Of a DNA stretch of 64,000 nucleotides, positions 2,584 through 63,543 are shown piece by piece. The notes under the pieces are model-generated. The model did no database searches and had not been told where the DNA came from. It saw only the letters and a program-made list of their open reading frames with translations. The DNA is from Candidatus Methylacidithermus pantelleriae (GTDB lineage Bacteria; Verrucomicrobiota; Verrucomicrobiia; Methylacidiphilales; Methylacidiphilaceae): contig NZ_CAJNOB010000023.1 of the NCBI RefSeq assembly GCF_905250085.1, positions 1 through 64,000 on the forward strand, in the 5' to 3' direction. How positions within the stretch are numbered: position 1 is the first letter of the stretch; every line of letters starts with the position of its first letter. The position numbers and the translations under genes were made by a program.

Positions 2584-3365
2584 TGCCAGGGCCTTTGATA
2601 AAGGAGACGCACACCTACCTTGCCCCCGGGGAAATAAAACGTGGGTTGGTACGAAAAACTCCGGGTGTGAGCGTCATAAATGAGACGTTTCGGATGGTCT
2701 GTGTAGTTCGGATCGTAAACCAGAAATTCCGTTTGGTTGGGATGGGAGGTTTTTCGCGAGGCGAAAACGACCACCGCATGGTTGATGTTGAGCGACGGAA
2801 AATTCGCTAGCCACGCTACAGAAGGGATGCCTTTTCGAGAAAAACTCCAAAGCTTTTGGTAGACTCGATGTTCCTCTCGGGGGCTGGGAGGAATAAGGAG
2901 AACGGCATTCCCCGGACGGAAGTAGATCGGCCATCCTAGGCCGAGATTTCTTCGAAAAACCTCCGGGCGCTGGGAACTGAGCTCCCATAGGGAACGAGCG
3001 CCAGGGAAGAGAACACGCTGGTGTGGTGGGAGAGGATCTTGCCATGCCTCCCGTTCGGTGACTTGGCGGATTCTCCGGGCAAGCTCAGAGTCCGAAAGAG
3101 GCTGTCCTTTAGGATCAAAGCGCGCAAACTTCCAGAATTGGATAGCTGCACGGCAAAGAACAAAGCAGCGACGCGAGTATCGTTTGTGACGATGCTTCGT
3201 ATGGGACTTGTGCGTGGGCCGGCCCGCCTCGTAGTCCCACACCGTCTCGTTGGCAAACCCGAACCGGTCTTTGCTGAATTCGAAACCCCCTGCAACGGCG
3301 AAGCTTACGTTCCAGAGAATAGGCAAAAAGAAAAGGATCCGGAGGGAAAAACGATCGAGTTTCAT
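2580..3365 (-). CDS. Secreted protein, possible papain-like cysteine peptidase fold
   Basis: The protein has 261 residues with an N-terminal hydrophobic signal peptide (about residues 8-25). A Cys-bearing helix-like segment (RRCFVLCRAAIQFW) follows, and later a hydrophobic strand NINHAVVVF and a strand ending VYDPNY. A Cys, then His, then Asp/Asn in this order resembles papain-like or C39-like peptidases, but I cannot name a family. The downstream KAS overlaps its stop by ATGA, so it is the first gene of a three-gene operon. The function, perhaps processing or anchoring of a product of the ketosynthase pair, is only a guess. Confidence 0.7.
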   Translation of the reverse strand: MKLDRFSLRILFFLPILWNVSFAVAGGFEFSKDRFGFANETVWDYEAGRPTHKSHTKHRHKRYSRRCFVLCRAAIQFWKFARFDPKGQPLSDSELARRIRQVTEREAWQDPLPPHQRVLFPGARSLWELSSQRPEVFRRNLGLGWPIYFRPGNAVLLIPPSPREEHRVYQKLWSFSRKGIPSVAWLANFPSLNINHAVVVFASRKTSHPNQTEFLVYDPNYTDHPKRLIYDAHTRSFSYQPTFYFPGGKVGVRLLYQRPWQ

Positions 3366-3556
3366 TTCCAGACCGTGAGGGCGCGGAAAAGAAGGTGGCT
3401 ATTTGCAGCCACCTTGACAAGCAGAGGCGTAAAAAGTGAGCGTCCTTGGGGCAAGACGGAACCGCCGGCCAGCATGTTTTTACAAATTTGGTATGGCCAC
3501 TTCACCAAGCCAAGGATATGTCGTTTGAGTAGGAGGCTAGTGGGAGGAGAGCGGGT

Positions 3557-4732
3557 GTGGCGTGGCGCCTTTTTCTTTGGTGTTGGACGGCGATTAGCGC
3601 TTTATGGTGGGGGCTTTCCCTTCATTGTGCTCGCGCCGGTGCCCCCCGGAGGCCCCCGCGGAAGCGTAAGGGTAGCAAGACCTTATCCCTGTTCCGGCCG
3701 ATTCCTAAGATCCGCTCCCCCCAGGAGTACGAGCGTCTCCGCGATGCCCTCTTTTCGCTTCTTTCGCAACTTGACTCAGGGTGCCAGCTCCTTTTGGGGA
3801 TCCCCAGGGAAGACGCGTGTCTTTGGACCGACGCAATCCAATTGCTTGAGGCGTCCGAATGCGGGGCGTCTTTTCAGATTCTTTTTGAACCGGACCCTTT
3901 CCCTTATCGCAACCCCAAAATTCTCTGGCAGAGGTCGCTGGCCAAGTTTGCCAAAGGCGAGCTTTGGGTATGGACGGACGGGGATGTTTGCTTGCCTTCG
4001 CATTTTTTGCACGTGGTCCGGGAGGATTTCGAAGCATGCCGGAGGGGGTTTGTTACCTACCCGTACGTGATCCGAGGAGTCGACAACGCTCGGGACTTTT
4101 GGGAAGCCGCCTGGGTGAATGTGGAGCTCTTTCCAGGCGTTTGCCTTTTGGGCCGGATGGATCGGGTGTGGTTTGGTCTGGGAGCTGGAATGGTTTTTTT
4201 GGGGAAAAAGTGGGAACGGGCTTCCCTATGGGACAAGCTAGGGAAATCGCTTGCGGATGACTTCGTTCTTGCTCAAACTCTTAAGCCAGGTGCCTTGGGT
4301 TCGGTGGTATTGGAGACCTTTCCCCGTTCCCTGACCTTACGAGAAGCCCTTGCCCGTTATCTCCGTTGGAAAAAAACCGTCCGGTGGTGCTCCCCCGCGG
4401 GATTTGCGGGCCAGATCCTTATTTTGCCCATGATAGGCTGGACCGTCGCGCTTTTTCTTAACTGGCACGAACCCCAAAACTGGATGGGATGGCTCTGCGT
4501 TGTCGTTGGAGAGTCATTGTGGTTTCTTTCCATCTTTCGAGCCGTTCGAGCGCATTTACCGAAGCGTCTCTACCGCCTTTTACCCTTGTGGAGCTATCTT
4601 CGAACCTTTTCTTGGTTGTTGTGCTGGTTGCCTTGGCCGGTGGCGTGGGATCGGCAGTGGTGGCCGTGCCCGGTCGACAAGTCTTCCCTTCTAGATCAAA
4701 GGGTCTCCCTGAAGAGGAAAGGGACCGGTTAA
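3557..4732 (+). CDS. GT21-type glycosyltransferase (ceramide glucosyltransferase/HpnI-like)
   Basis: This 391-residue membrane glycosyltransferase has an N-terminal hydrophobic segment (about residues 5-22) and a GT-A-like domain with WTDGD near residue 141. LADDF lies near 233 and RYLRWKKTVRW near 266, followed by several C-terminal hydrophobic helices. The D, DxD, D and (Q/R)xxRW series is the signature of processive-type lipid glycosyltransferases and of the GT21 ceramide glucosyltransferase/HpnI family. The GTG start is preceded by GGAGGAGA. It is divergent from the ketosynthase operon and is followed within 31 nt by a transposase gene on the other strand. The sugar donor and lipid acceptor cannot be read from sequence. 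Confidence 0.75.
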   Translation: MAWRLFLWCWTAISALWWGLSLHCARAGAPRRPPRKRKGSKTLSLFRPIPKIRSPQEYERLRDALFSLLSQLDSGCQLLLGIPREDACLWTDAIQLLEASECGASFQILFEPDPFPYRNPKILWQRSLAKFAKGELWVWTDGDVCLPSHFLHVVREDFEACRRGFVTYPYVIRGVDNARDFWEAAWVNVELFPGVCLLGRMDRVWFGLGAGMVFLGKKWERASLWDKLGKSLADDFVLAQTLKPGALGSVVLETFPRSLTLREALARYLRWKKTVRWCSPAGFAGQILILPMIGWTVALFLNWHEPQNWMGWLCVVVGESLWFLSIFRAVRAHLPKRLYRLLPLWSYLRTFSWLLCWLPWPVAWDRQWWPCPVDKSSLLDQRVSLKRKGTG

Positions 4733-24020: not shown

Positions 24021-24266
24021 ATGCGCGTCGTCGTTCTTCCGAAAAAAGAACTTTTGGATCCCCAAGGGGAAGCTATCCAGCGAGCCCTTCACACGCTGGG
24101 TTTTTCCGAAATCCGTTCCGTACGGGTCGGCAAATGCATCGAGGTAGAGTTTGCTCAAGGGAACAAGGAGGAGTGCCACAGGAGGCTCCAGCAGGCTTGC
24201 CAGGAACTTTTGGTCAACCCGATCATCGAGGAATACGTTTTGGAAGAGCCTATCGCCCAGGCTTAA
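24021..24266 (+). CDS. purS: Phosphoribosylformylglycinamidine synthase subunit PurS
   Basis: PurS is the small bridging subunit of the three-part FGAM synthase (PurS-PurQ-PurL). The protein has 81 residues with the characteristic VVVLPKKELLDPQGEAIQRA start, the central HTLGFSEIRSVRVGKCIEVE and the C-terminal LLVNPIIEEY. It ends 24 nt before purQ. An upstream TTG two codons earlier is an alternative start. PurL is not adjacent and must lie elsewhere. Confidence 0.93.
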   Translation: MRVVVLPKKELLDPQGEAIQRALHTLGFSEIRSVRVGKCIEVEFAQGNKEECHRRLQQACQELLVNPIIEEYVLEEPIAQA

Positions 24267-44976: not shown

Positions 44977-47202
44977 TTACAGTCCATGGAACGATCCAGC
45001 CGTCCGGGACTTCTCCTGGGATGCCGCCAACCGGTAGCGCAAGCCAGAGTAACGAACGAGTGCTTCATTATGATACACGGCTCGAGCCAGAGCTCGCTTT
45101 TGGCCGAGGATGACGGCAAGCTGGCGGGCTCTGGTAAGCGCTGTGTAGAGAAGACTACGGTGAAGAAGGACATATTGTTCCATCGCCAGGGGAATGACGA
45201 CGCACGGAAACTCTGAGCCTTGCGATTTGTGGATCGTAATCGCGTAGGCTAGGGCAAGCTCATCGAGCTCCCGCGCATCATACTCAACCATCCGCTCGTC
45301 GAATGCGACCCAAAGGCGTCCTTCTGCGGGTTTCACCGTAACAATTTCCCCAATATCCCCGTTAAAAACTTGCTTTTGATAGTCGTTTTCAATCTGAAGG
45401 ACCTTATCTCCTGGACGAAATCGCCACCCGAATCGCTCGATCATGGGTGTGGCCCTGCCGTTGAGCCGTTCCTGCAGCCGAAGGTTAAGCTCCCGGATCC
45501 CAAGAACACCCCGGTTCATGGGGGCGAGGACTTGGATATCGCGGATGGGATGAAATCCAAATCGAGCAGGGATTCGCTCTGCCACAAGTTCGATCACCAG
45601 TTCTGCAATCTCTTGGGGATCTTCCCTTGGAATAAAGTAAAAGTCACGCGTCGTCTCCGGTTCGGACGAATATGGGGGAAGCCTCCCGTGCAAGATGGCA
45701 TGGGCAGCTCGGACAATGTGACTTCCTTGGGATTGGCGAAGCACTTCCGTGAGTTCTGCTACGGGAACAACTCCGCTTCTAAGGGTTTCATCAAGGACAG
45801 CTCCCGGCCCAACAGCCGGAAGCTGGTTGGGATCACCAACGAGGATCAAGGAAGCGGTCTCGCGAAGAGCTTGGAGGACCCAATGGAACAAGGGTAGATC
45901 AAGCATGGAAGCTTCGTCCACAATGAGAACATCGCAAAGGAGGCGAGAAATCCGGTTCGAAGGTTGATCCTCCTCTCCTGGCCGAATTTCCAATAGTCGA
46001 TGAATCGTTTTTGCAGAAAATCCGGTAGCCTCGGCGAGACGCTTGGCAGCTCTACCTGTTGGAGCACAACACTCAACCCGCATGCCTTGTGCCTGAAAAA
46101 TTTCCAAAAGAGCTCGCACTAAGGTGGTTTTTCCTACGCCGGGTCCTCCACTGAGAATGACAAAACGATGAGTCAAAGCCTGGGCCAGGGCACGCTCTTG
46201 CGAGGCGGTGAGCGTGAGCTGGCTTCTTTGTTTCCAGGCTTCTATGGCCTGGGAAAGCTCGATTGGTCGGTCGAGAAACTGCTCGCGCAACCGCCGGCCC
46301 AATTGGGCGGCAACACCCGACTCCATCCGGTCCAACCAGGGCAGGTAGACAAGCTTCCCACACGGGAACGATCCTGCGGTTAGGACCTTCTTTTCCACGC
46401 ACTTTTCAAGACAGGCTTCTAGAGTCTTTTCCGACAGGTCCGTAAGCAGAGAAGACTCCTCGAGGAGTTTTTCCCACGGCAGGGCTGTATGCCCGTCCTG
46501 TGTCGCAGCTTGCCACAGAAGATATTCCATGGCAGCCCGCATCCGTTGATCAGAATCTTCCGGAATGCCAAAGTTGCGCGCAAGGGAGTCGGCCATGGTA
46601 AATCCGATTCCAGGAACTTCCCGTGCGAGCTGGTACGGGTCATCTTGAATTCTCCTTGCGGTATCGGGCCCGTACTTTGCGTAGATGCGCGCCGCTCGTC
46701 CTCCACCAATACCCAGGCTATGAAGGAAAAGAAGGGTTCTTTGGGTTGCTTTCTCTCGCTGCCATGCCTGGCAGATTTGCTCGCGGCGTTTCGGGCCGAT
46801 GCCCTCCACCTCCTCTAGTCGGTGGGGAGAAGTTTCAATGATGGCCGGCAGGTCTATTCCGAATTTTTCCACCAGTTTTTGAGCATGTACAGGGCCGATG
46901 CTGGGAATGTGGCCACTGGCCAGATACCGTTGAAGCCCCTCAGAACTAAAGGCAGGCAGAACCTTTAACTCATTTGCCTGAAATTGAAGCCCGAAGCGAG
47001 GGTGCCGGAACCAGTGACCCCAAGCCTCAATTTCCTGTCCCACTCTGGGTGCGATGGTTTGGCCCACCAAGGTTGCCAGTGAGGTTTTTTCGGACGATAT
47101 CCTGACCTTGAGGACGGTAAAGCCCGTGTGCTTATGAAAAGCGACGATCCGCTCGATCCGCCCAGTCAACCTCTGGAAGGAGCGCAAAAGTTCCTGCTCC
47201 AT
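44977..47202 (-). CDS. recD2: RecD2-type DNA helicase
   Basis: RecD2 is a 5'-3' SF1B helicase used in repair in bacteria without RecBCD. The 741-residue protein has N-terminal helix-hairpin-helix repeats (LEEVEGIGPKRREQI), the Walker A GGPGVGKTT near residue 354, the Walker B LIVDEASMLD, motif III GDPNQLPAVGPG, and motif VI region THKSQGSEFPCVV ending with LYTALTRARQL. The length suits the RecD2 family. The ATG at 47202 is chosen because upstream residues are not family-like. It is divergent from the micro-protein locus. Confidence 0.93.
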   Translation of the reverse strand: MEQELLRSFQRLTGRIERIVAFHKHTGFTVLKVRISSEKTSLATLVGQTIAPRVGQEIEAWGHWFRHPRFGLQFQANELKVLPAFSSEGLQRYLASGHIPSIGPVHAQKLVEKFGIDLPAIIETSPHRLEEVEGIGPKRREQICQAWQREKATQRTLLFLHSLGIGGGRAARIYAKYGPDTARRIQDDPYQLAREVPGIGFTMADSLARNFGIPEDSDQRMRAAMEYLLWQAATQDGHTALPWEKLLEESSLLTDLSEKTLEACLEKCVEKKVLTAGSFPCGKLVYLPWLDRMESGVAAQLGRRLREQFLDRPIELSQAIEAWKQRSQLTLTASQERALAQALTHRFVILSGGPGVGKTTLVRALLEIFQAQGMRVECCAPTGRAAKRLAEATGFSAKTIHRLLEIRPGEEDQPSNRISRLLCDVLIVDEASMLDLPLFHWVLQALRETASLILVGDPNQLPAVGPGAVLDETLRSGVVPVAELTEVLRQSQGSHIVRAAHAILHGRLPPYSSEPETTRDFYFIPREDPQEIAELVIELVAERIPARFGFHPIRDIQVLAPMNRGVLGIRELNLRLQERLNGRATPMIERFGWRFRPGDKVLQIENDYQKQVFNGDIGEIVTVKPAEGRLWVAFDERMVEYDARELDELALAYAITIHKSQGSEFPCVVIPLAMEQYVLLHRSLLYTALTRARQLAVILGQKRALARAVYHNEALVRYSGLRYRLAASQEKSRTAGSFHGL

Positions 47203-47438
47203 GCCTTTAGCCCTAAGTGTGAACCCAATAGCCCCATCTTGACAAGAGAGGCCCGCACGGCTCATGAGCTCGAGCGGCAGCCAGCCTGGGTTCTCCCCTG
47301 ATTCGTTCCGTTGGCAGGTCCTTGGGAGTGGGAGGATCCTGCATGAAACTCGCAAGCAAAGGGAGGGGAGAGGAATTGGATATCAAAACTTTTTGCGGGA
47401 AGGGGCAAGGTATGGCTTATTTTCTCATAGCACGGCAT

Positions 47439-47462: not shown

Positions 47463-47480
47463 GAAAGGGGGTGACCGACC

Positions 47481-47579
47481 ATGGCGGGTTATGCGTTTAT
47501 CTTCCTCGTGGTTATTGCCGTGGTGCCTTGGATCTATGTCCTATCCACGATCCTTGAAAAATCCAGGGCGACACGATAG
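47481..47579 (+). CDS. 32-residue single-span membrane micro-protein, first of a tandem pair
   Basis: ATG at 47481 is preceded by GGGGGTGA at good spacing and opens a 32-codon frame. It has a short start MAGYAFIF, a continuous hydrophobic span to about residue 25 with a central Pro-Trp-Ile-Tyr, and a charged tail EKSRATR. It shares YAFxxF, PxIY and a Glu-containing charged tail with the second micro-protein 195 nt downstream, so the two are probably paralogues. I do not recognise a family. Candidates by size and shape are a small accessory subunit of a membrane complex or a type I toxin. Confidence 0.6.
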   Translation: MAGYAFIFLVVIAVVPWIYVLSTILEKSRATR

Positions 47580-47603
47580 GCCACGGGAAAGGGTAAATCC
47601 GTA

Positions 47604-47722
47604 GGGGTTCTCCGGAGGGAGTTTTCGAGACTAACTAGGGGCTACGACCCCACCGGGTCGTCCCGTAAAGGCTCCGGTTGGCCCTCTCCCCCCGGAGAAC
47701 CCTCTTTTTTTTCTTCTTTTTT
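47604..47722 (+). ncRNA. Strongly structured RNA ending in a U-run: terminator or small RNA between two micro-genes
   Basis: GGGTTCTCCGG at 47605-47615 pairs perfectly with CCGGAGAACCC at 47692-47702. The stem continues as GGGAG (47617-47621) with CTCCC (47686-47690) across one mismatch. Inside, ACGACCC (47644-47650) pairs with GGGTCGT (47655-47661) around CACC. Immediately after the outer stem come TCTTTTTTTTC and more T-rich sequence to 47722. A 98-nt closed, branched structure with a U-tract is larger than an ordinary terminator. It could be a small RNA, a riboswitch-like terminator acting on the second micro-gene, or an elaborated terminator of the first. No known RNA class was recognised. 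Confidence 0.6.
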
Positions 47723-47774
47723 CTTGCGTTTTCGTTTCACCCGGGATAGGCAGTTACACTTCGGAGGTCACCCT

Positions 47775-47858
47775 ATGGAATACGCATTCGCCGTGTTTGT
47801 AATCCTCTTGTGCCCGTTAATCTATCTTACGGCCAAGGTGTTCGAGCGCCCGCAGTAA
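47775..47858 (+). CDS. 27-residue single-span membrane micro-protein, second of a tandem pair
   Basis: ATG at 47775 follows CGGAGGTCA, close to the ideal ribosome site. The 27-codon product starts MEYAFAVFV, stays hydrophobic to about residue 20 with Cys-Pro-Leu-Ile-Tyr in the middle, and ends KVFERPQ. It aligns with the first micro-protein through YAF, F, P-x-IY and the Glu-bearing tail. It starts about 50 nt after the U-tract of the structured RNA. Function unknown. Confidence 0.6.
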   Translation: MEYAFAVFVILLCPLIYLTAKVFERPQ

Positions 47859-48139
47859 GAAAGACCCGAAGGGTTTGGCTTGCGGGTCGTTAGGGCCAAC
47901 CGGAATGCCGCGCTGGTGGCCGGAAGGGCTGCCTGCGATGGATTGAAGGGGATCTTCAGGAGGATCGATCGCGAGCTGGGGGTGCCATGGATCGCGTCCG
48001 AGACAGGTGAACCTGCCTTCGAGGGGCGGTCGGGCACCCCCGCATTTTTTGGAGGCCCGGCGGAGGCGTGTCTTTGCCTGGAGGGATGGGAGTGGAGCCG
48101 GTTGACCTTGGGCTGCGGGAATGCTAAAGGGGAGCGACT

Positions 48140-48382
48140 ATGACAAGAGGTTCCGAGGGAGCTCCCCAGACGTTCGAAGAGGCCATGGCACGTATCGAGG
48201 TTCTGGTGCGGGAAATGGAAACAGGTTCCGTTGCTTTGGAGGAACTCATCCAAAAATACGAGGAAGGAATGCGGCTTCTCAAATTTTGCCGTGACAAGCT
48301 CGCTCAAGCGGAACAAAAAATTGAGATCTTAACCCGTTCCGTCGAGGAAGGAGGACGGGGAGCGGGATCGCCGGAAGGGTAA
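48140..48382 (+). CDS. xseB: Exodeoxyribonuclease VII small subunit
   Basis: XseB assembles with XseA into the single-strand-specific exonuclease VII. The 80-residue helical protein shows the family pattern TFEEAMARIEVLVREMETG, then VALEELIQKYEEGMRLLKFC and LAQAEQKIEIL. The XseA gene is not adjacent. It lies 81 nt upstream of dxs, a pairing seen in many bacteria. Confidence 0.92.
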   Translation: MTRGSEGAPQTFEEAMARIEVLVREMETGSVALEELIQKYEEGMRLLKFCRDKLAQAEQKIEILTRSVEEGGRGAGSPEG

Positions 48383-56087: not shown

Positions 56088-57536
56088 CTAAGCATTTAAA
56101 GGGAGTCGCAGTTCCTCTAGTGCTTCCTCAAAAGAGGGAGTTCTTAGCTTTAGATTGGCCTCAAAATCTTTTGGCAACCAGTGCACAGGATGCCACGAGG
56201 AGAGGAGAACGGCAATCTTTTCAGGACAAAAAAGAGTTTCCCTATGATCCTCGGCGAAGCGTCGAACAAGTAAAGGAAGATGCGCTGGGTTGGCGCTCCG
56301 GTGGATGCATGCTGAAAGTGCTGCCCTGGTTTCTTCCTTGGTTCCGACGCATTCAAAGGGGCTGGCAAGATCGGACAATGTTAGGGAATCGATCACTTTT
56401 GCGAGGGAGACATCATTCAACGGATCACACCCAAGAAAAGCTCGGCACGTTGGTTGTGGCAAGAATGCGGAGAGCATAATATGCACAAAGAGGCATTTCG
56501 GGCATTGTCCACACCAAGTTTCGTCGGGCGTGCGGGCGTTACAGCTGCGAAAAATCTCGCCTACTTTCGAAGGTAGATGGCTAAACTGATGGGTAATTTG
56601 GAGCTCATTCCATGGGCGCAAAAGGCTAAAGTAGGTGATATGCGGGGAAAGCCATTGAGCAAGGTACTGCCGGAAATCTTGCTCAAAGGTGCTGCTTTTG
56701 GAATACTGGTGGTTGACTTCGGTGCCTGGCACCGTGCTGCAATCCGCGCTTGCTTCGTGGGACACGATGACGTGAGACAGACCAAAAAGGGCTGCAACCC
56801 AGACCGATGCAAAGGCAAGAACCGCCGAGAAGGGAATATGCCCGTTCAGCCACCCTTTCGCGTTGAGTTCTACAAGTAAAGGATCCAGAGTCCGGTGAGC
56901 CACGAAAACGCGTTCCTTAGGAAAACCGAAGTATTCGGCTATCTTCCACTGCCGTTTGCCCGGGTTAAGAAAGAATAGATAGATGGGTTCCTGCCGGCTT
57001 TGCAGGAGATGTAATGTTACCAGGGAATCTTTTCCTCCTCCCACGGGGACGAGGATTCCGGCTGACCTACGAGAACCTTCCCACGGAAGCAAAGCGAGAT
57101 CCCTGGGTTTCTCACAAACGAACTGGACCCACTCTTCTTCTCCCACTGCAAGGCCATTACGGTAGGAAAACTCAGAAAGACCTCGGTGGAAAAGCTTTCT
57201 CCACCACAAGGCTTGAGCTATAGAGAGCTCTCCCGCAATAACATGGATCCAAGGAGGACAAGCTCCCTTCCAATAGCTAATCATTTCAACCAAACCCAGG
57301 TGGAAGGCGAAATTCCTTACCCAAGGGAGATGGTGGACAGAGCTTCCACCAGGGGGTTTGGGTAAACGCCAGAGCGTTCGAAATGGGGGGAGTGGGGGGA
57401 TCCGGAAGGAGAATTGGACCTTCAGTTCGTTTTGGCTCTCCTCAAATTCCACGGATTCATAATGCATCTGGGGGAATCGTTTTCTTAAGCGTGCAAAGCG
57501 CTCTAACGGGGAGGAGGGATAGGTCTCGGTTACCAT
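56088..57536 (-). CDS. murL: MurL-like UDP-MurNAc-L-Ala-L-Glu epimerase
   Basis: MurL epimerises the terminal L-Glu of UDP-MurNAc-L-Ala-L-Glu to D-Glu. The 482-residue protein has an adenylate-forming-type phosphate loop GILVPVGGGKDSLVTLHL near residue 165. Other matches are FSYRNGLAVGEEEW before it, IVSHEASADCSTVPGTEVNH, and a Cys-rich segment DETWCGQCPKCLFV. These fit my memory of Xanthomonas MurL. The nearby MurD2-type ligase strengthens the call. The start ATG at 57536 lacks a good ribosome site. Confidence 0.78.
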   Translation of the reverse strand: MVTETYPSSPLERFARLRKRFPQMHYESVEFEESQNELKVQFSFRIPPLPPFRTLWRLPKPPGGSSVHHLPWVRNFAFHLGLVEMISYWKGACPPWIHVIAGELSIAQALWWRKLFHRGLSEFSYRNGLAVGEEEWVQFVCEKPRDLALLPWEGSRRSAGILVPVGGGKDSLVTLHLLQSRQEPIYLFFLNPGKRQWKIAEYFGFPKERVFVAHRTLDPLLVELNAKGWLNGHIPFSAVLAFASVWVAALFGLSHVIVSHEASADCSTVPGTEVNHQYSKSSTFEQDFRQYLAQWLSPHITYFSLLRPWNELQITHQFSHLPSKVGEIFRSCNARTPDETWCGQCPKCLFVHIMLSAFLPQPTCRAFLGCDPLNDVSLAKVIDSLTLSDLASPFECVGTKEETRAALSACIHRSANPAHLPLLVRRFAEDHRETLFCPEKIAVLLSSWHPVHWLPKDFEANLKLRTPSFEEALEELRLPLNA

Positions 57537-58167: not shown

Positions 58168-58935
58168 CTAGGCTTTCGAGACGCCTACCGATCGTACCGC
58201 TTGATCCGCTTCTTCCAGCGCTTGCCGTGACCCAATGTCAAACCATAGGCCGGGTAACTCCCACACGTACACCGGAACTTTGGGAAACAGCCATTGGATG
58301 AATCGCCCAGGCTGGTCGCGGTTGTCGGTTTGGCAAAGGTAGTCTTTGAGCCATTGCGGAAGTTCCGGTGGGAAGTAGTAGAGGCCGACAGCCACGCGTG
58401 TGTCTTGGGGTGAGTCCGGCTTTTCCTCAAAGAAAACGATTCGACCCTCCCGATCGGTTCGAAGGTGGTTGTACAAGCGTACCGATGCAAGCTCTGGGAC
58501 GCGGTAAACCGCCACTACGGGCGCCCGGCGGTCTCTGCCGAGTTGAACCATCGGTGAAAGAGAGGAGCGAAAAAGGTTATCTCCTGCCACGACGAGAATC
58601 TCATCCTGGTTCCATCCTCTGTCTGTGAGGGCAAACCAGAGGTCTCCTATGGCACCCCTCCGAGTGGCGTCGGACGTCGTCCCGTCGTTAAGGATATGGA
58701 GAGCAAAAGGCAAAGAAGCCTGAGTTTTCCACGTTGCTGCCCACTGGAGAAAGGAGGGGTAAAATTTGGCATTACTCACCACACAAGCTTCCTCAATCCC
58801 GTCCGTGGCCACTAGCGAGTCTAGGATGTATTCCAGGATCGGCCGGCCACCCACAGGAAGCAGGGCTTTTGGGCAGCAATCAGTAAGGGGTGCCAAACGG
58901 GTACCGTAGCCTGCGGCAAGAATAATAGCTTTCAT
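58168..58935 (-). CDS. Sugar-phosphate nucleotidyltransferase
   Basis: This 255-residue NTP-transferase starts MKAIILAAGYGTRLAPLT with the catalytic G-x-G-T-R-L, followed by CCPKALLPVGGRPILEY (conserved K). VVAGDNLF is the metal-binding Asp, and FEEKPDSP and WFDIGSRQALEEA come later. It activates a sugar-1-phosphate with an NTP; the sugar and base cannot be assigned. The ATG lies within the last 4 nt of ptsI (ATGA), so the two are translationally coupled, which is an unusual pairing. A role in wall or exopolysaccharide synthesis fits the neighbouring mur genes. Confidence 0.88.
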   Translation of the reverse strand: MKAIILAAGYGTRLAPLTDCCPKALLPVGGRPILEYILDSLVATDGIEEACVVSNAKFYPSFLQWAATWKTQASLPFALHILNDGTTSDATRRGAIGDLWFALTDRGWNQDEILVVAGDNLFRSSLSPMVQLGRDRRAPVVAVYRVPELASVRLYNHLRTDREGRIVFFEEKPDSPQDTRVAVGLYYFPPELPQWLKDYLCQTDNRDQPGRFIQWLFPKVPVYVWELPGLWFDIGSRQALEEADQAVRSVGVSKA

Positions 58936-60764
58936 GTCCCAGGAATGGATGGGGAAAGGCCGCCAGCTTCCCACTGGTTCTCCTCCTCCAAAAGGTGCGG
59001 GAAATACAACTGGGCCAGTTCGCGGAGCCGTTCCAAGACGTCCCCGCTCGTGGGGCACTGGGTTAGTTCATCGACATGCTTGCGCAGCTCCCCATAGTGG
59101 ACGTGCCGGATGGCATCCTTAATCCAAGGAACGAAAACGGATCCCATGGAAAGCTCGTCTACGCCAAGCGCGACAAGAGCCAGAGCCGAAAACAGGTCAG
59201 CTGCCATTTCACCGCACACTCCCACCCAGATATGGAAACGGTGCGCTTCTTCCACTACCCGGTGGAGGAGGCGTAAGACGGAGGGATGGGTAGGTTGATA
59301 GAGTGCACTGACTTTTCCGTTCAAACGGTCCACCGCGAGGGTGTACTGCACAAGGTCGTTGGTGCCAACGCTAAAAAAATCGACTTCTCGGGCAAAAAGG
59401 TCAGCCAAAAGGGCCACGGAAGGGACCTCCACCATGACGCCGCACTCTATCTGTTCCGGCACTGGCACCCCTTCCTCGCAAAGTTGCTGGCGGCATTGCC
59501 AGAAGAGCTCTTTGGCCAAGCGCAGCTCCTCAAGCGTAGTCACCATAGGAAACATGACCCGCACGTTGCCTTCGGTACCCGCTCGCCAAATTGCGCGGAG
59601 CTGTGTTTGGAAGAGGTTCCGGCAATCCAGTGAGAGCCGGATTCCGCGCCATCCCAGGAATGGATTGGCTTCCCGGACCGGATTGGGCAACAAAGGACCG
59701 AGTTTATCCGCCCCGAGGTCCAAGGTTCGAATGATGACCCCGTGGGGTTTGACTGCCTGCGCGATTTCTCGATACGCAGCGCATTGTTCCTCTTCGCTGG
59801 GAGGCGTGGCTCGGTTGAGGAAAAGAAATTCCGTACGTAAAAGCCCAATCCCCTCAGCTCCATTAGCACGAACCAGCGGAATATCATCCGGAAGTTCGAC
59901 ATTGGCCGATACAGTGATATGACGGCCGTCCCTTGTTACAGCAGTAAGATCTCGGCTCAGGTTGAGCCTTGCCTCCAAGTGGTTGCGGCGCATTTGCCGC
60001 TCGAGAAGACGTCGTTTGGTCGATTCGGAGGGCCGGATTACGACCCACCCTTCGACTCCATCCACCAGAATTTCTACCTGGTCGTTGAGGTGTTTCAGGA
60101 GCCCTCCCAGGCCGACGACGGCGGGAATGTTCAGGGATCGAGCCAGTATGGCCGCATGGGACGTGCGTGTACCTTCTTCGGTGATGAGTCCCAAAAGGGC
60201 TCGTCGATCCAGAGCTACAACGTCCGAGAGGTAGAGCGATCGTGCTGCCAGGATGCTGGGTTCCTCCAGCTGCCACCGGGCGAGGCTGGGGTTGCCTTGG
60301 CAATGAGCCAGAACTCGCCGGGCCACGTCGCGAATGTCACTGGCTCGTTCTCGGAAATAATCCTCGTTTAAAGCAAGAAGGTGTTGGGAAAACTCTTCGG
60401 TGATCTCGTGGTAGACATATTCAACATTGTAAAGCTTTTCTTCCAACCGAGCCTTCAGCGCCTCGAGAATCGCTGGGTCTTCCAGGACCATGAGGTGAAC
60501 GTCAAGAACTGACGCTGCACCCTGCGACTCATTTTCGGCGAGCTTGGCTTTCGCTTCCAAAAGCTCTCGACGAGTTTCCAGAAGGGCAGCTTGCAGGCGT
60601 TCGAGTTCTCCGCGGATCTCCTCCGGCCGAATTTTCCACCGGGGGACCTTGACACGGCCTTCCTGCAAGAGAACCGCCGGACCAATGGCAAGCCCAGGAG
60701 AAGCCGGGATTCCCCGCAACACCATTTCTGCCGTGGTGCCTTGCGAAACGTTATCCACTTCCAT
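58932..60764 (-). CDS. ptsI: PEP-protein phosphotransferase, PTS enzyme I
   Basis: EI phosphorylates itself from PEP and passes the phosphate to HPr. The 610-residue protein has LRGIPASPGLAIGPAVLL at the start and the active His in EEGTRTSHAAILARSL near residue 195. The C-terminal PEP domain has IRTLDLGADK, FLGWRGIR, MVEVPSVALLADL, FFSVGTNDLVQYTLAVDR and VCGEMAAD. All catalytic features are present. HPr is encoded 206 nt upstream and HprK before it; no sugar permease (EII) gene is nearby. Confidence 0.95.
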   Translation of the reverse strand: MEVDNVSQGTTAEMVLRGIPASPGLAIGPAVLLQEGRVKVPRWKIRPEEIRGELERLQAALLETRRELLEAKAKLAENESQGAASVLDVHLMVLEDPAILEALKARLEEKLYNVEYVYHEITEEFSQHLLALNEDYFRERASDIRDVARRVLAHCQGNPSLARWQLEEPSILAARSLYLSDVVALDRRALLGLITEEGTRTSHAAILARSLNIPAVVGLGGLLKHLNDQVEILVDGVEGWVVIRPSESTKRRLLERQMRRNHLEARLNLSRDLTAVTRDGRHITVSANVELPDDIPLVRANGAEGIGLLRTEFLFLNRATPPSEEEQCAAYREIAQAVKPHGVIIRTLDLGADKLGPLLPNPVREANPFLGWRGIRLSLDCRNLFQTQLRAIWRAGTEGNVRVMFPMVTTLEELRLAKELFWQCRQQLCEEGVPVPEQIECGVMVEVPSVALLADLFAREVDFFSVGTNDLVQYTLAVDRLNGKVSALYQPTHPSVLRLLHRVVEEAHRFHIWVGVCGEMAADLFSALALVALGVDELSMGSVFVPWIKDAIRHVHYGELRKHVDELTQCPTSGDVLERLRELAQLYFPHLLEEENQWEAGGLSPSIPGT

Positions 60765-60970
60765 CGTTTTGCCCTGCGCGATTTTGATAAGACGCTCCGT
60801 GGCTTCGAAGCGTCTTCGGAAGACTTCGTGGGTCTGTCTTCCCCATTGGCATTCGCGAAACCCCTCGTTCCGCGGGTGACCCCGGGTCCCTGGTCCGCCC
60901 TCTCCCCACCCCAGGGATTTTCACGCGTTTCCGGCTTGTCCGCCGGCCGGTCCCCAATCGCTATCCCTCA

Positions 60971-61288
60971 TCATTCGTCTTGGAACTTGCTGGTGACGAG
61001 TTTTTCCAAAGCCTCGATGGCTTCCCGAGCGTCGGGTCCGACCGCAGTAACTTTAATCCTCGACCCGTAACCGGCTGCCAGAAGCATGAGTCCCATAATA
61101 CTCTTTCCGTTCACTTCCTCGCCATCCTTCTCTACCCGGATCTCGCTTCCGTAGCGAGTTGCGGTTTTAACGAAAAGAGCCGCCGGACGCGCATGAAGCC
61201 CCAGACGGTTCTGGATCACCATCTCTCGGGTTACCACAGGCAAAGACCCGGCACTGCGTTTCGTATAATTCGAACCCACGACTGACAT
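60971..61288 (-). CDS. ptsH: Phosphocarrier protein HPr
   Basis: The HPr-fold protein of 105 residues carries the EI-target His32 in GLHARPAALFV and the regulatory Ser63 in NGKSIMGLMLLAAGYGS, the substrate site of HprK. About 18 N-terminal residues precede the usual start. The presence of both sites next to hprK supports dual phosphorylation. The hprK stop lies 10 nt downstream of the complementary order (hprK, then ptsH), so the two form one unit. Confidence 0.94.
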   Translation of the reverse strand: MSVVGSNYTKRSAGSLPVVTREMVIQNRLGLHARPAALFVKTATRYGSEIRVEKDGEEVNGKSIMGLMLLAAGYGSRIKVTAVGPDAREAIEALEKLVTSKFQDE

Positions 61289-61298
61289 AAACTAGCGG

Positions 61299-62270
61299 TT
61301 AGCGCCCGCGTCGCCTCATGAGAGACTTGAGACGTTCGTTAAACTCCATCGCGGCATGATACCCCATGGCGCGAAGCTTCTGGTCCAGCGCTGCCACCTC
61401 AACCAGCGTAGCAAGATTGCGGCCCGGACGCACGGGTATCGTAACATGAGGCACCCGGATTTTCAAGATTTCGCAGTGCCCCTGATCCAACCCGATCCGA
61501 TCCATTTCGAATCCCTCGCTCCATTCTTTCAGAGTGACGACCAGATCCAATCGTTTTTCCAACCGAATTCCTCTTACGCCATAGACGCTGGCCACATTGA
61601 TAATACCAATTCCACGGACCTCCATATGAAAGCGCGTTTGCTCCGGGGCCGTGGCGACGAGCTCCCTTCCCTCCACACAACGAATCAAGGTTGCGTCGTC
61701 AGACACAAGGGTATGCCCTCGCTCTACCAAGGAAAGCACGCATTCACTTTTTCCGACTCCGCTCGATCCTTTGATGAGCACGCCAACCCCTTGGATGTCC
61801 ACCATGCTTCCCTGTTCCAAGATTTGCGGCGCAAAATCCATCTCCAAGCAAATGGTAATGGCGTTAATCAGTCTCATGGTCTGCAGCGGCGACCGGAAAA
61901 CGGCAATGGAATGCTTTTCTGCCTCCTCCAGAACGATGGGGGGAGCTGCTAGACTTCGTGCCAAAATCAAGCAGGGGATTTCCTTTTCAAAAAGCGCGCT
62001 TAAACGTTTCCGGCTTTCCTCGGGAGGCAACCCGTGAATGTAGGAATTTTCGGCCTTGCCAATGACCTGAACCCGGTGACGCGCGAAGTATTTAAAGTAA
62101 CCCGCAAGGGCAAGCCCGGGACGGTTTACGGAACCCTCGCGGATTGTACGAGAAAGACCAGCTTTTCCCGCTAATAAGGAAAGATGAAGCTGCCGCCCGT
62201 GGTGCTCGTAGAACTGTCCGACGGTCACTTCAGGGACACGCCGGTAGGTTGGATGGGAAGCCGCAGGCAT
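61299..62270 (-). CDS. hprK: HPr kinase/phosphorylase
   Basis: HprK phosphorylates or dephosphorylates HPr on its regulatory Ser. The 323-residue protein has the N-terminal domain with SVNRPGLALAGYFKYFA, the Walker A GSSGVGKSE near residue 170, HTLVSDDATLI, and the C-terminal family signature MEVRGIGIINVASVYG with a later IPVRPGRNLATLVEVAAL. An ATG at 62402 with a better ribosome site (AAGGG) would extend the protein by 44 residues over the pabB 3' end. I prefer 62270 on family length, but the true start is open. Confidence 0.92.
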   Translation of the reverse strand: MPAASHPTYRRVPEVTVGQFYEHHGRQLHLSLLAGKAGLSRTIREGSVNRPGLALAGYFKYFARHRVQVIGKAENSYIHGLPPEESRKRLSALFEKEIPCLILARSLAAPPIVLEEAEKHSIAVFRSPLQTMRLINAITICLEMDFAPQILEQGSMVDIQGVGVLIKGSSGVGKSECVLSLVERGHTLVSDDATLIRCVEGRELVATAPEQTRFHMEVRGIGIINVASVYGVRGIRLEKRLDLVVTLKEWSEGFEMDRIGLDQGHCEILKIRVPHVTIPVRPGRNLATLVEVAALDQKLRAMGYHAAMEFNERLKSLMRRRGR

Positions 62271-62280
62271 CAGAGGAAAT

Positions 62281-63543
62281 TCACACGCTGTTTGTTCGCT
62301 TTCTTGCCTTTGGTAAAACGTAGTCCCACCAAGCGGGACTTCCACGCGATTTAGGGGTTGGGGGGGAACGCAAAAAAGAGAGGTCCTTCTTTGTGTTTGC
62401 ATTGGGTTTACCCTTCTCCCAGCGGGACAATGCCTCCTGTAAGCCTCGTGCCTTGTCGAGCGTTTCCTTATATTCGGCCAGGGATTCGGAGTCAATCGTA
62501 ATCCCGCTTCCAACCTGCAGCCACAGGTGGGTTCCATCCCACACCAAAATACGGATGCCCATGGTGAAGACCATCTCGCCCTGAAAACCGATCATCCCAA
62601 ACGCCCCCGTATAGATGCCGCGGGGCGCTTGTTCGAGCTCTCGGATAATCTCCATTGCTCTCTTTTTGGGGGCACCTGTTACGGACCCACCGGGAAAACA
62701 GGCGCGCAAAATGTCGCCCACGCTAGTGCCCGGCCGCAGTTGCCCTTCGACAGTCGAAACTAGGTGGTGAACGAAGGCAAAGGACTCCAGCTCCGCTACT
62801 TTGGGTGCCCGGACAGTTCCCCATTGGCAGATGACTCCCAGATCGTTTCGTTCCAGATCTGTAATCATGATGAGCTCGGCGAGCTCTTTGGAATGGCTCG
62901 CCAGTTCTTCGGCGAGTCTTTGATCTTCTTCGGGGGTTTGTCCTCGAGGCCGGGTACCTTTAATCGGACGTGTGACGATGGAGGATCCCTCTACCCGAAG
63001 AAAAAGCTCCGGAGAGGCCGACAGGAGCACAAGCTTCGGTGTTTCAAAGAACGCGGCTCCGGGGGCAGGGTCACCAGCCAGAAGTTCCTCGAACAGCTCG
63101 TACGGGTTGCCGGAAAAGGGCGCGTGCATGCGGTGGGAAAGATTGACTTGGTAAATATCTCCAGATCGGATGTACTCGTGGGCCTGCTCCACCATCGTGA
63201 TCCATCGCTTTGGAGAGATCTCAAGCTCCCACGAACCCGCCCGTCGGTCTTTGTGGTGGTGGCTGGCTTTTCGTTCTTGCCACCGGCAGGAACTCCCCGG
63301 GCACGGGACGCGACGAAGTTCTGGATAAATCCCAAACCAGAATTCCCCCTCGTAAGTAATGTAACCGACGGCGCCGCCCGAAAACAAAGGAGCTTCCTTC
63401 GGACCGACCGGCTCATAGCGCGCCAGAACGGCCCCGATCTCGTCCCAGTTTTCCCGCGTTCCGGCGAGGATTTCGACGGCACCTTCCCCCTCGAGAAACA
63501 TCCCTGTGGCGTCCCAGGAGCGGAAAAGGACATAGTCGGTCAT
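62281..63543 (-). CDS. pabB: Aminodeoxychorismate synthase component I (PabB type)
   Basis: PabB aminates chorismate on the way to p-aminobenzoate and folate. The 420-residue protein has the chorismate-binding core: RSGDIYQVNLSHRM, ASPELFLRVEGSSIVTRPIKG, TDLERNDLGVIC, the signature CFPGGSVTGAPKKRAM, and YTGAFGMIGFQG. The PIKG motif (PIKGT) is that of PabB rather than anthranilate synthase TrpE. After the core, about 45 residues of low-similarity tail overlap the possible longer hprK start. Its ATG overlaps the M16 peptidase stop by 4 nt. Confidence 0.93.
   Translation of the reverse strand: MTDYVLFRSWDATGMFLEGEGAVEILAGTRENWDEIGAVLARYEPVGPKEAPLFSGGAVGYITYEGEFWFGIYPELRRVPCPGSSCRWQERKASHHHKDRRAGSWELEISPKRWITMVEQAHEYIRSGDIYQVNLSHRMHAPFSGNPYELFEELLAGDPAPGAAFFETPKLVLLSASPELFLRVEGSSIVTRPIKGTRPRGQTPEEDQRLAEELASHSKELAELIMITDLERNDLGVICQWGTVRAPKVAELESFAFVHHLVSTVEGQLRPGTSVGDILRACFPGGSVTGAPKKRAMEIIRELEQAPRGIYTGAFGMIGFQGEMVFTMGIRILVWDGTHLWLQVGSGITIDSESLAEYKETLDKARGLQEALSRWEKGKPNANTKKDLSFLRSPPTPKSRGSPAWWDYVLPKARKRTNSV

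Follow-up and report, generated by a model that had tools for sequence, protein, structure and literature searches.

Among described membrane microproteins, the closest counterparts of the locus reported here are membrane type I toxins and small accessory subunits of membrane complexes. The toxins of Hok/Sok and Ibs/Sib are short, hydrophobic and multi-copy; Hok has about 50 aa and is coupled to the overlapping frame mok, and Ibs has about 18–19 aa and an overlapping antisense RNA, Sib. On the side of the subunits, KdpF and CydX (length near 30 aa, one span, a short charged tail) belong to the kdp and cyd operons, with curated models for their families, and an N-out/C-in topology is typical of accessory micro-subunits. 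TisB/IstR-1 and TimP/TimR combine a small inner-membrane peptide, and a structured 5′ region around or before its start, with an antitoxin sRNA encoded upstream on the opposite strand. Membrane type I toxins are commonly shorter than 60 aa, with a hydrophobic helix and a cytosolic basic tail, and according to a 2021 review they are described only in Proteobacteria and Firmicutes (PMC8309996). Tandem toxin copies are known from zorO/zorP: in the ZorO/OrzO–ZorP/OrzP system of E. coli O157:H7, the toxins are hydrophobic paralogues of about 29 aa encoded in tandem, each from its own transcript, RNA complementarity is limited (18–19 nt), a divergent sRNA gene stands beside each toxin, and OrzO needs 15 continuous or 17 discontinuous pairs (PMC3919570).

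Here, we describe a tandem pair of microprotein frames, P1 and P2, from Candidatus Methylacidithermus pantelleriae, the sole named species of its genus by taxonomy look-up, whose strain PQ17 comes from geothermal soil with temperatures of 60°C or higher (PMC8170126). All positions refer to the window, that is, the whole analysed stretch of 64,000 nt, unless another contig is named.

Two hydrophobic frames with ribosome sites lie between recD2 and xseB

The pair occupies a gap of roughly 930 nt, bounded on one side by the divergent recD2 helicase gene (44977..47355, minus strand for the longest frame, identified by Pfam; the true start is probably near 47205) and on the other by xseB, which encodes the exonuclease VII small subunit (48140..48382, plus strand; Pfam) and is followed on the same strand by frames that, reading their translations, we take to be dxs and argG. 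The wider neighbourhood is one of housekeeping genes, with ribosomal proteins, SecY, lipoyl synthase and Dfp on one side and a Mur ligase, PTS enzyme I and HPr kinase on the other. Within the same window, close to frames for a nucleotidyltransferase and for PTS enzyme I, a 482-aa frame at 56088–57536 (minus strand) has no Pfam match at E ≤ 0.001. The genes at 58932–62537 (minus strand) for PTS enzyme I and for HPr kinase suggest a regulatory phosphotransferase chain in a methanotroph.

P1 (47481..47579, plus strand) is an ATG frame for a 32-aa microprotein, MAGYAFIFLVVIAVVPWIYVLSTILEKSRATR, with a Shine–Dalgarno (SD) site, GGGGGTGA, at 47467..47474 (plus strand); P2 (47775..47858, plus strand) encodes 27 aa, MEYAFAVFVILLCPLIYLTAKVFERPQ, behind the SD site GGAGGT at 47763..47768 (plus strand). 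In both cases the ATG lies 6 nt downstream of the site, as read directly from the sequence and scored for SD strength. An earlier note on this DNA had reported two tiny frames with strong ribosome sites; its coordinates proved exact, and each frame has a GGAGG-type site. Each product consists of a very hydrophobic span of 20–22 residues followed by a short tail in which a Glu stands beside Lys/Arg; the hydrophobic moment of the spans is low, and they are not amphipathic. By the positive-inside rule, we infer that each protein, once translated, would insert as a single helix with its short N-terminus outside and its Lys/Arg tail in the cytosol. The conserved motif spacing that the same note had described holds in part, in that the distance from Pro to Glu is 10 in both proteins, whereas that from Tyr to Pro is 12 in P1 and 11 in P2. 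The remaining frames of the gap (87, 164, 55, 57 and 58 aa) matched no family.

Frames of this kind are rare in the genome

Under a screen for ATG frames of 20–50 aa with a 17-residue hydropathy of at least 2.4 and an SD score of at least 5, P1 and P2 were the only 2 of the window's 383 ATG micro-ORFs to pass, and 30 dinucleotide shuffles of the window yielded 0 frames within the same limits. With softer limits, applied to 292 kb of an assembly of 71 contigs and 2,459,655 bases, they remained the sole free-standing frames combining an SD site with a transmembrane (TM) span, every other such frame being weak or belonging, as a tail or an internal frame, to a longer gene. These counts bear on the simplest rival account, that two untranslated hydrophobic frames happen to stand behind SD-like sequences in a long intergenic stretch. 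Such an account would fit the lack of a homologue in any searched genome, and also the fact that the P2 frame is open for 65 codons 5′ of its ATG, so that the limits of P2 are set by the SD site and ATG alone; it is set against the empty shuffles and against the occurrence of two frames less than 200 nt apart that resemble each other. We regard chance as rather improbable, and we have good confidence that P1 and P2 are translated genes.

Similarity between the two proteins points to selection at the protein level

The P1–P2 alignment score exceeds that of shuffled sequences even when the alignment is re-optimised for each shuffle (p 0.0002–0.0036); it was reached by 0.02–0.36% of shuffles, including those in which span and tail were shuffled separately. 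Across 23 aligned codons, 36 of 69 bases differ (13, 6 and 17 at codon positions 1, 2 and 3), and the BLOSUM62 sum is still 50. Neutral mutation to an equal nucleotide distance gave mean sums of 3–10, and a sum of 50 was reached in 0 of the 3,000–4,600 stop-free simulations per setting. Besides Met, 8 aligned residues are identical, and the codons of 6 of these differ silently. Since the amino-acid similarity is thus greater than in every neutral simulation at 36/69 differences, protein-level selection on the pair is likely.

It is also quite probable, judging from these comparisons, that the two are paralogues from an old duplication. That two unrelated spans converged is less likely; this alternative keeps some weight because the alignment was picked after the pair had been seen and because the neutral model demands no hydrophobic span. 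The earlier proposal of a duplicated, translated and selected pair of single-span proteins is therefore backed by the shuffle, rarity and neutral-simulation statistics, translation being probable and the single span predicted.

The pair is an orphan within the sampled genomes

No homologue was found when P1 and P2 were searched singly against 14 close relatives, or as a two-row profile against 62 genomes of the order and 388 genomes of the phylum, where the 17 genomes with a match at E ≤ 0.1 were no more than expected by chance; queries this tiny have limited reach, and distant relatives may be missed. Those weak matches from single-peptide, two-row-profile and degenerate-pattern searches that were inspected proved to be internal or antisense frames, and a DNA match in one related genome (G002) was dismissed as chance, lying inside a long coding frame that is, judging by its translation, apparently a PutA-type gene. 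Searches of GTDB contigs and viral contigs returned no homologue of either protein, and searches of plasmids and phages none of P2. Pfam and NCBIfam gave 0 families at E ≤ 10, and PHROGs, PADLOC and PDB gave no homologue, which bears out the earlier statement that the proteins belong to no known family.

The surroundings of the pair are equally particular to this genome. Among the relatives examined, recD2 was found only in the M. pantelleriae genome and in a sister genus (g3), being absent from the five examined genomes of another genus (g2); in g3 it is not adjacent to xseB, so that the recD2–xseB adjacency was seen in M. pantelleriae only. No comparable micro-ORF was present at those xseB and recD2 loci of the relatives that were examined. 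Because both the gene arrangement and a comparable micro-ORF are missing in the relatives examined, the locus represents a lineage-specific junction, and on the sequences at hand the pair is restricted, within the sampled genomes, to Ca. Methylacidithermus. The earlier note had set homologues with a tandem layout in related genomes as a test of its proposal. None was found, leaving the pair an orphan without comparative support; this result does not make the pair mere chance, because the silent-site pattern between the copies argues against that, and the pair is probably functional.

A partner encoded elsewhere would explain the conserved residues

The retention of specific residues in two diverged copies under protein-level selection raises the possibility that P1 and P2 are single-span accessory subunits or regulators, in the manner of KdpF, CydX or AcrZ, that serve a membrane complex or a transporter whose genes lie elsewhere; the conserved YAF and PxIY motifs and the Glu–Lys/Arg contacts would then bind the partner. 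Size, single span, charged tail and predicted topology all agree with such a role, as does the non-amphipathic character of the spans, and the shared residues are better explained by it than by a toxin-like mode of action. Against it, no membrane-complex gene except SecY was found among the scanned neighbours, neither protein has a match in Pfam, NCBIfam or PDB, and the pair was not detected in the sister genera within its family. Membership in the CydX or KdpF families in particular found no Pfam or NCBIfam profile match, and no cyd or kdp operon is present at the locus. CcmD gave the only PDB resemblance, a weak one (E 4.9), with a GYAF start and a mid-span Pro common to both; it was rejected as an identity, there being no PF04995 match at the locus at E ≤ 1 in the species' own genome, and it differs in its greater length (its PDB chain has 69 residues) and in that no ccm genes were seen near P1 and P2. 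On balance, we consider an accessory-subunit role somewhat unlikely in itself, yet it is the main rival of the toxin-like mode and only slightly less probable.

Predicted RNA structures surround both frames

Fold prediction places a 16-bp hairpin, with 11 perfect and 5 inner pairs, around the SD site and start codon of P1 (47448..47502, plus strand), with both SD and AUG mostly unpaired in its apical loop; in silico, it is predicted to be still formed at 60–70°C. Of 1420 ATGs in the window no other is enclosed in this way, the palindrome being counted on both strands, and 292 kb of genome contained one other example; contig C34 carries an 11-bp perfect hairpin that likewise encloses a start, in a palindromic context (L077, around 10434). 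The P2 start has no comparable enclosing hairpin. Downstream of P1, a long branched hairpin of about 100 nt is followed by T8 (47604..47718, plus strand; z −4.1), giving a terminator-like end to a putative P1 transcript and placing a strong hairpin/terminator between the two frames. The putative P2 transcript has a structured 3′ region of about 190 nt (47859..48052, plus strand; z −2.9) with a terminator-like end, formed by a GGGGGTGCC...GGCACCCCC hairpin and T6. Because a terminator hairpin follows each frame, P1 and P2 each look like a self-contained microgene. No sigma-70-like promoter was found on either strand, and none was recognised for the P1 or the P2 unit; an overlapping antisense RNA with an atypical promoter would escape this search.

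Two stretches of complementarity link the units. The sequence TCCGGTTGGCCCT (47673..47685, plus strand) is the perfect complement of AGGGCCAACCGGA (47892..47904, plus strand) in the P2 3′ region, with 13 perfect pairs that were matched by 0 of 400 shuffles, and GGTCGGGCACCCCC (48028..48041, plus strand), which is also the 3′ arm of the P2 terminator hairpin, is complementary at 13 of 14 positions to the P1 SD region at 47467–47480, a level reached in 0.25% of shuffles. The stretches had already been seen when these two tests were chosen; in a test of whole-unit P1–P2 complementarity the figure was 0.5% of shuffles. Pairing is predicted to bring only a modest net gain (−7.6 and −5.3 kcal/mol), because local stems hold both partners.

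Long-range complementarity, together with the one-strand order of leader ORF, terminator, leader ORF, terminator and operon, would suit an attenuator in which P1 and P2 are leader peptides before xseB–dxs–argG and alternative pairing decides read-through. The partners, however, are 206 and 547 nt apart, far for co-transcriptional antitermination; direct reading reveals no run of regulatory codons in either frame; the kept protein sequence is something that codon-counting leaders do not need; and the peptides lack the length that MifM-type arrest during membrane insertion would need. An attenuator is thus quite unlikely. A locus whose products are the structured RNAs themselves, whether dual-function or purely regulatory and with minor or non-functional peptides, would account for the strong structure z-scores of both locus halves (−3.8 and −3.1), but not for the SD sites, the rarity of the frames and the protein-level similarity of the pair. 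Rfam contained no match for the RNA (nhaA-I and psbNH, at E 2.5–4, fell far under the gathering threshold), and no relative of it was found in 40 related genomes. A 6S RNA identity was discarded as well: the species' true 6S RNA is elsewhere, at 24198–24382 of contig C34 (52 bits), and 6S RNA is also present in most of the relatives searched. We judge a regulatory RNA locus unlikely.

A type I toxin-like role is tentatively preferred

The best overall explanation, which we hold tentatively and at less than even confidence, is that P1 and P2 are genus-restricted membrane microproteins under RNA-structure control that resemble type I toxins. As translated, diverged paralogues, each would have its own short transcript and terminator hairpin; translation of P1 would be held down or tuned by the start-site hairpin, and base-pairing to the P2 transcript may add to this control. 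The firmest part of this picture is the pair of self-contained microgenes for single-span membrane peptides. The sequestration of the P1 site would be indirect, because SD and AUG lie mostly unpaired in the loop. The proteins would normally be little made and, once released, would insert in the inner membrane and perturb the membrane or a partner there. The toxin-like mode of action itself is a tentative assignment, with a probability of about a third, favoured because the locus is isolated, the copies are tandem and lineage-restricted, the transcripts are structured and have their own terminators, and the predicted cytosolic tail is basic. P1 and P2 also have the features of membrane type I toxins in being hydrophobic, shorter than 60 aa and endowed with one predicted TM helix, and the absence of a linked membrane complex counts in the same direction. 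Against this mode, the YAF, PxIY and Glu that both copies keep despite their divergence could just as well be explained by binding to a protein partner.

Comparison with the described systems shows both likeness and difference. The tandem, paralogous, hydrophobic peptides of similar size, the separate putative transcripts and the limited complementarity recall ZorO/OrzO–ZorP/OrzP, with which no family relation was detected; no divergent sRNA gene was found at P1 and P2, and the same-strand complementarity, of the 13-nt class, falls short of what OrzO needs (PMC3919570). The structured P1 start region is reminiscent of TisB and TimP, from which it differs in that the SD site is unpaired in the hairpin loop. 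Between 47200 and 48200, no repeat is long enough for a divergent sRNA of the IstR, TimR or OrzO type, and because this antisense gene was looked for and is missing, we do not assign the pair to the type I systems. The suggestion of Ibs- or Hok-like toxins found no support, since there is no family match and no detectable divergent or overlapping antisense gene, and P1 and P2 fit neither the size, the layout nor the family of those systems. In a further variant, which we think very improbable, the same-strand paralogous pair would form a mutual antitoxin module, each toxin being restrained by the mRNA of its twin: the 3′ end of P2 would pair with the ribosome site of P1, and the 3′ hairpin of P1 with the 3′ region of P2.

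Genome annotation has a blind spot for membrane microproteins, which go unannotated. The genus restriction of P1 and P2 limits their general reach; coming from a methanotroph that is thermoacidophilic, and combining evidence of selection from silent sites with clear RNA elements, they offer a compact testable case. In general terms the pair is of a kind already known, and the chance that its mechanism is new is small; a mutual antitoxin module, if true, would be a new kind of type I-like module, and one in Verrucomicrobiota.
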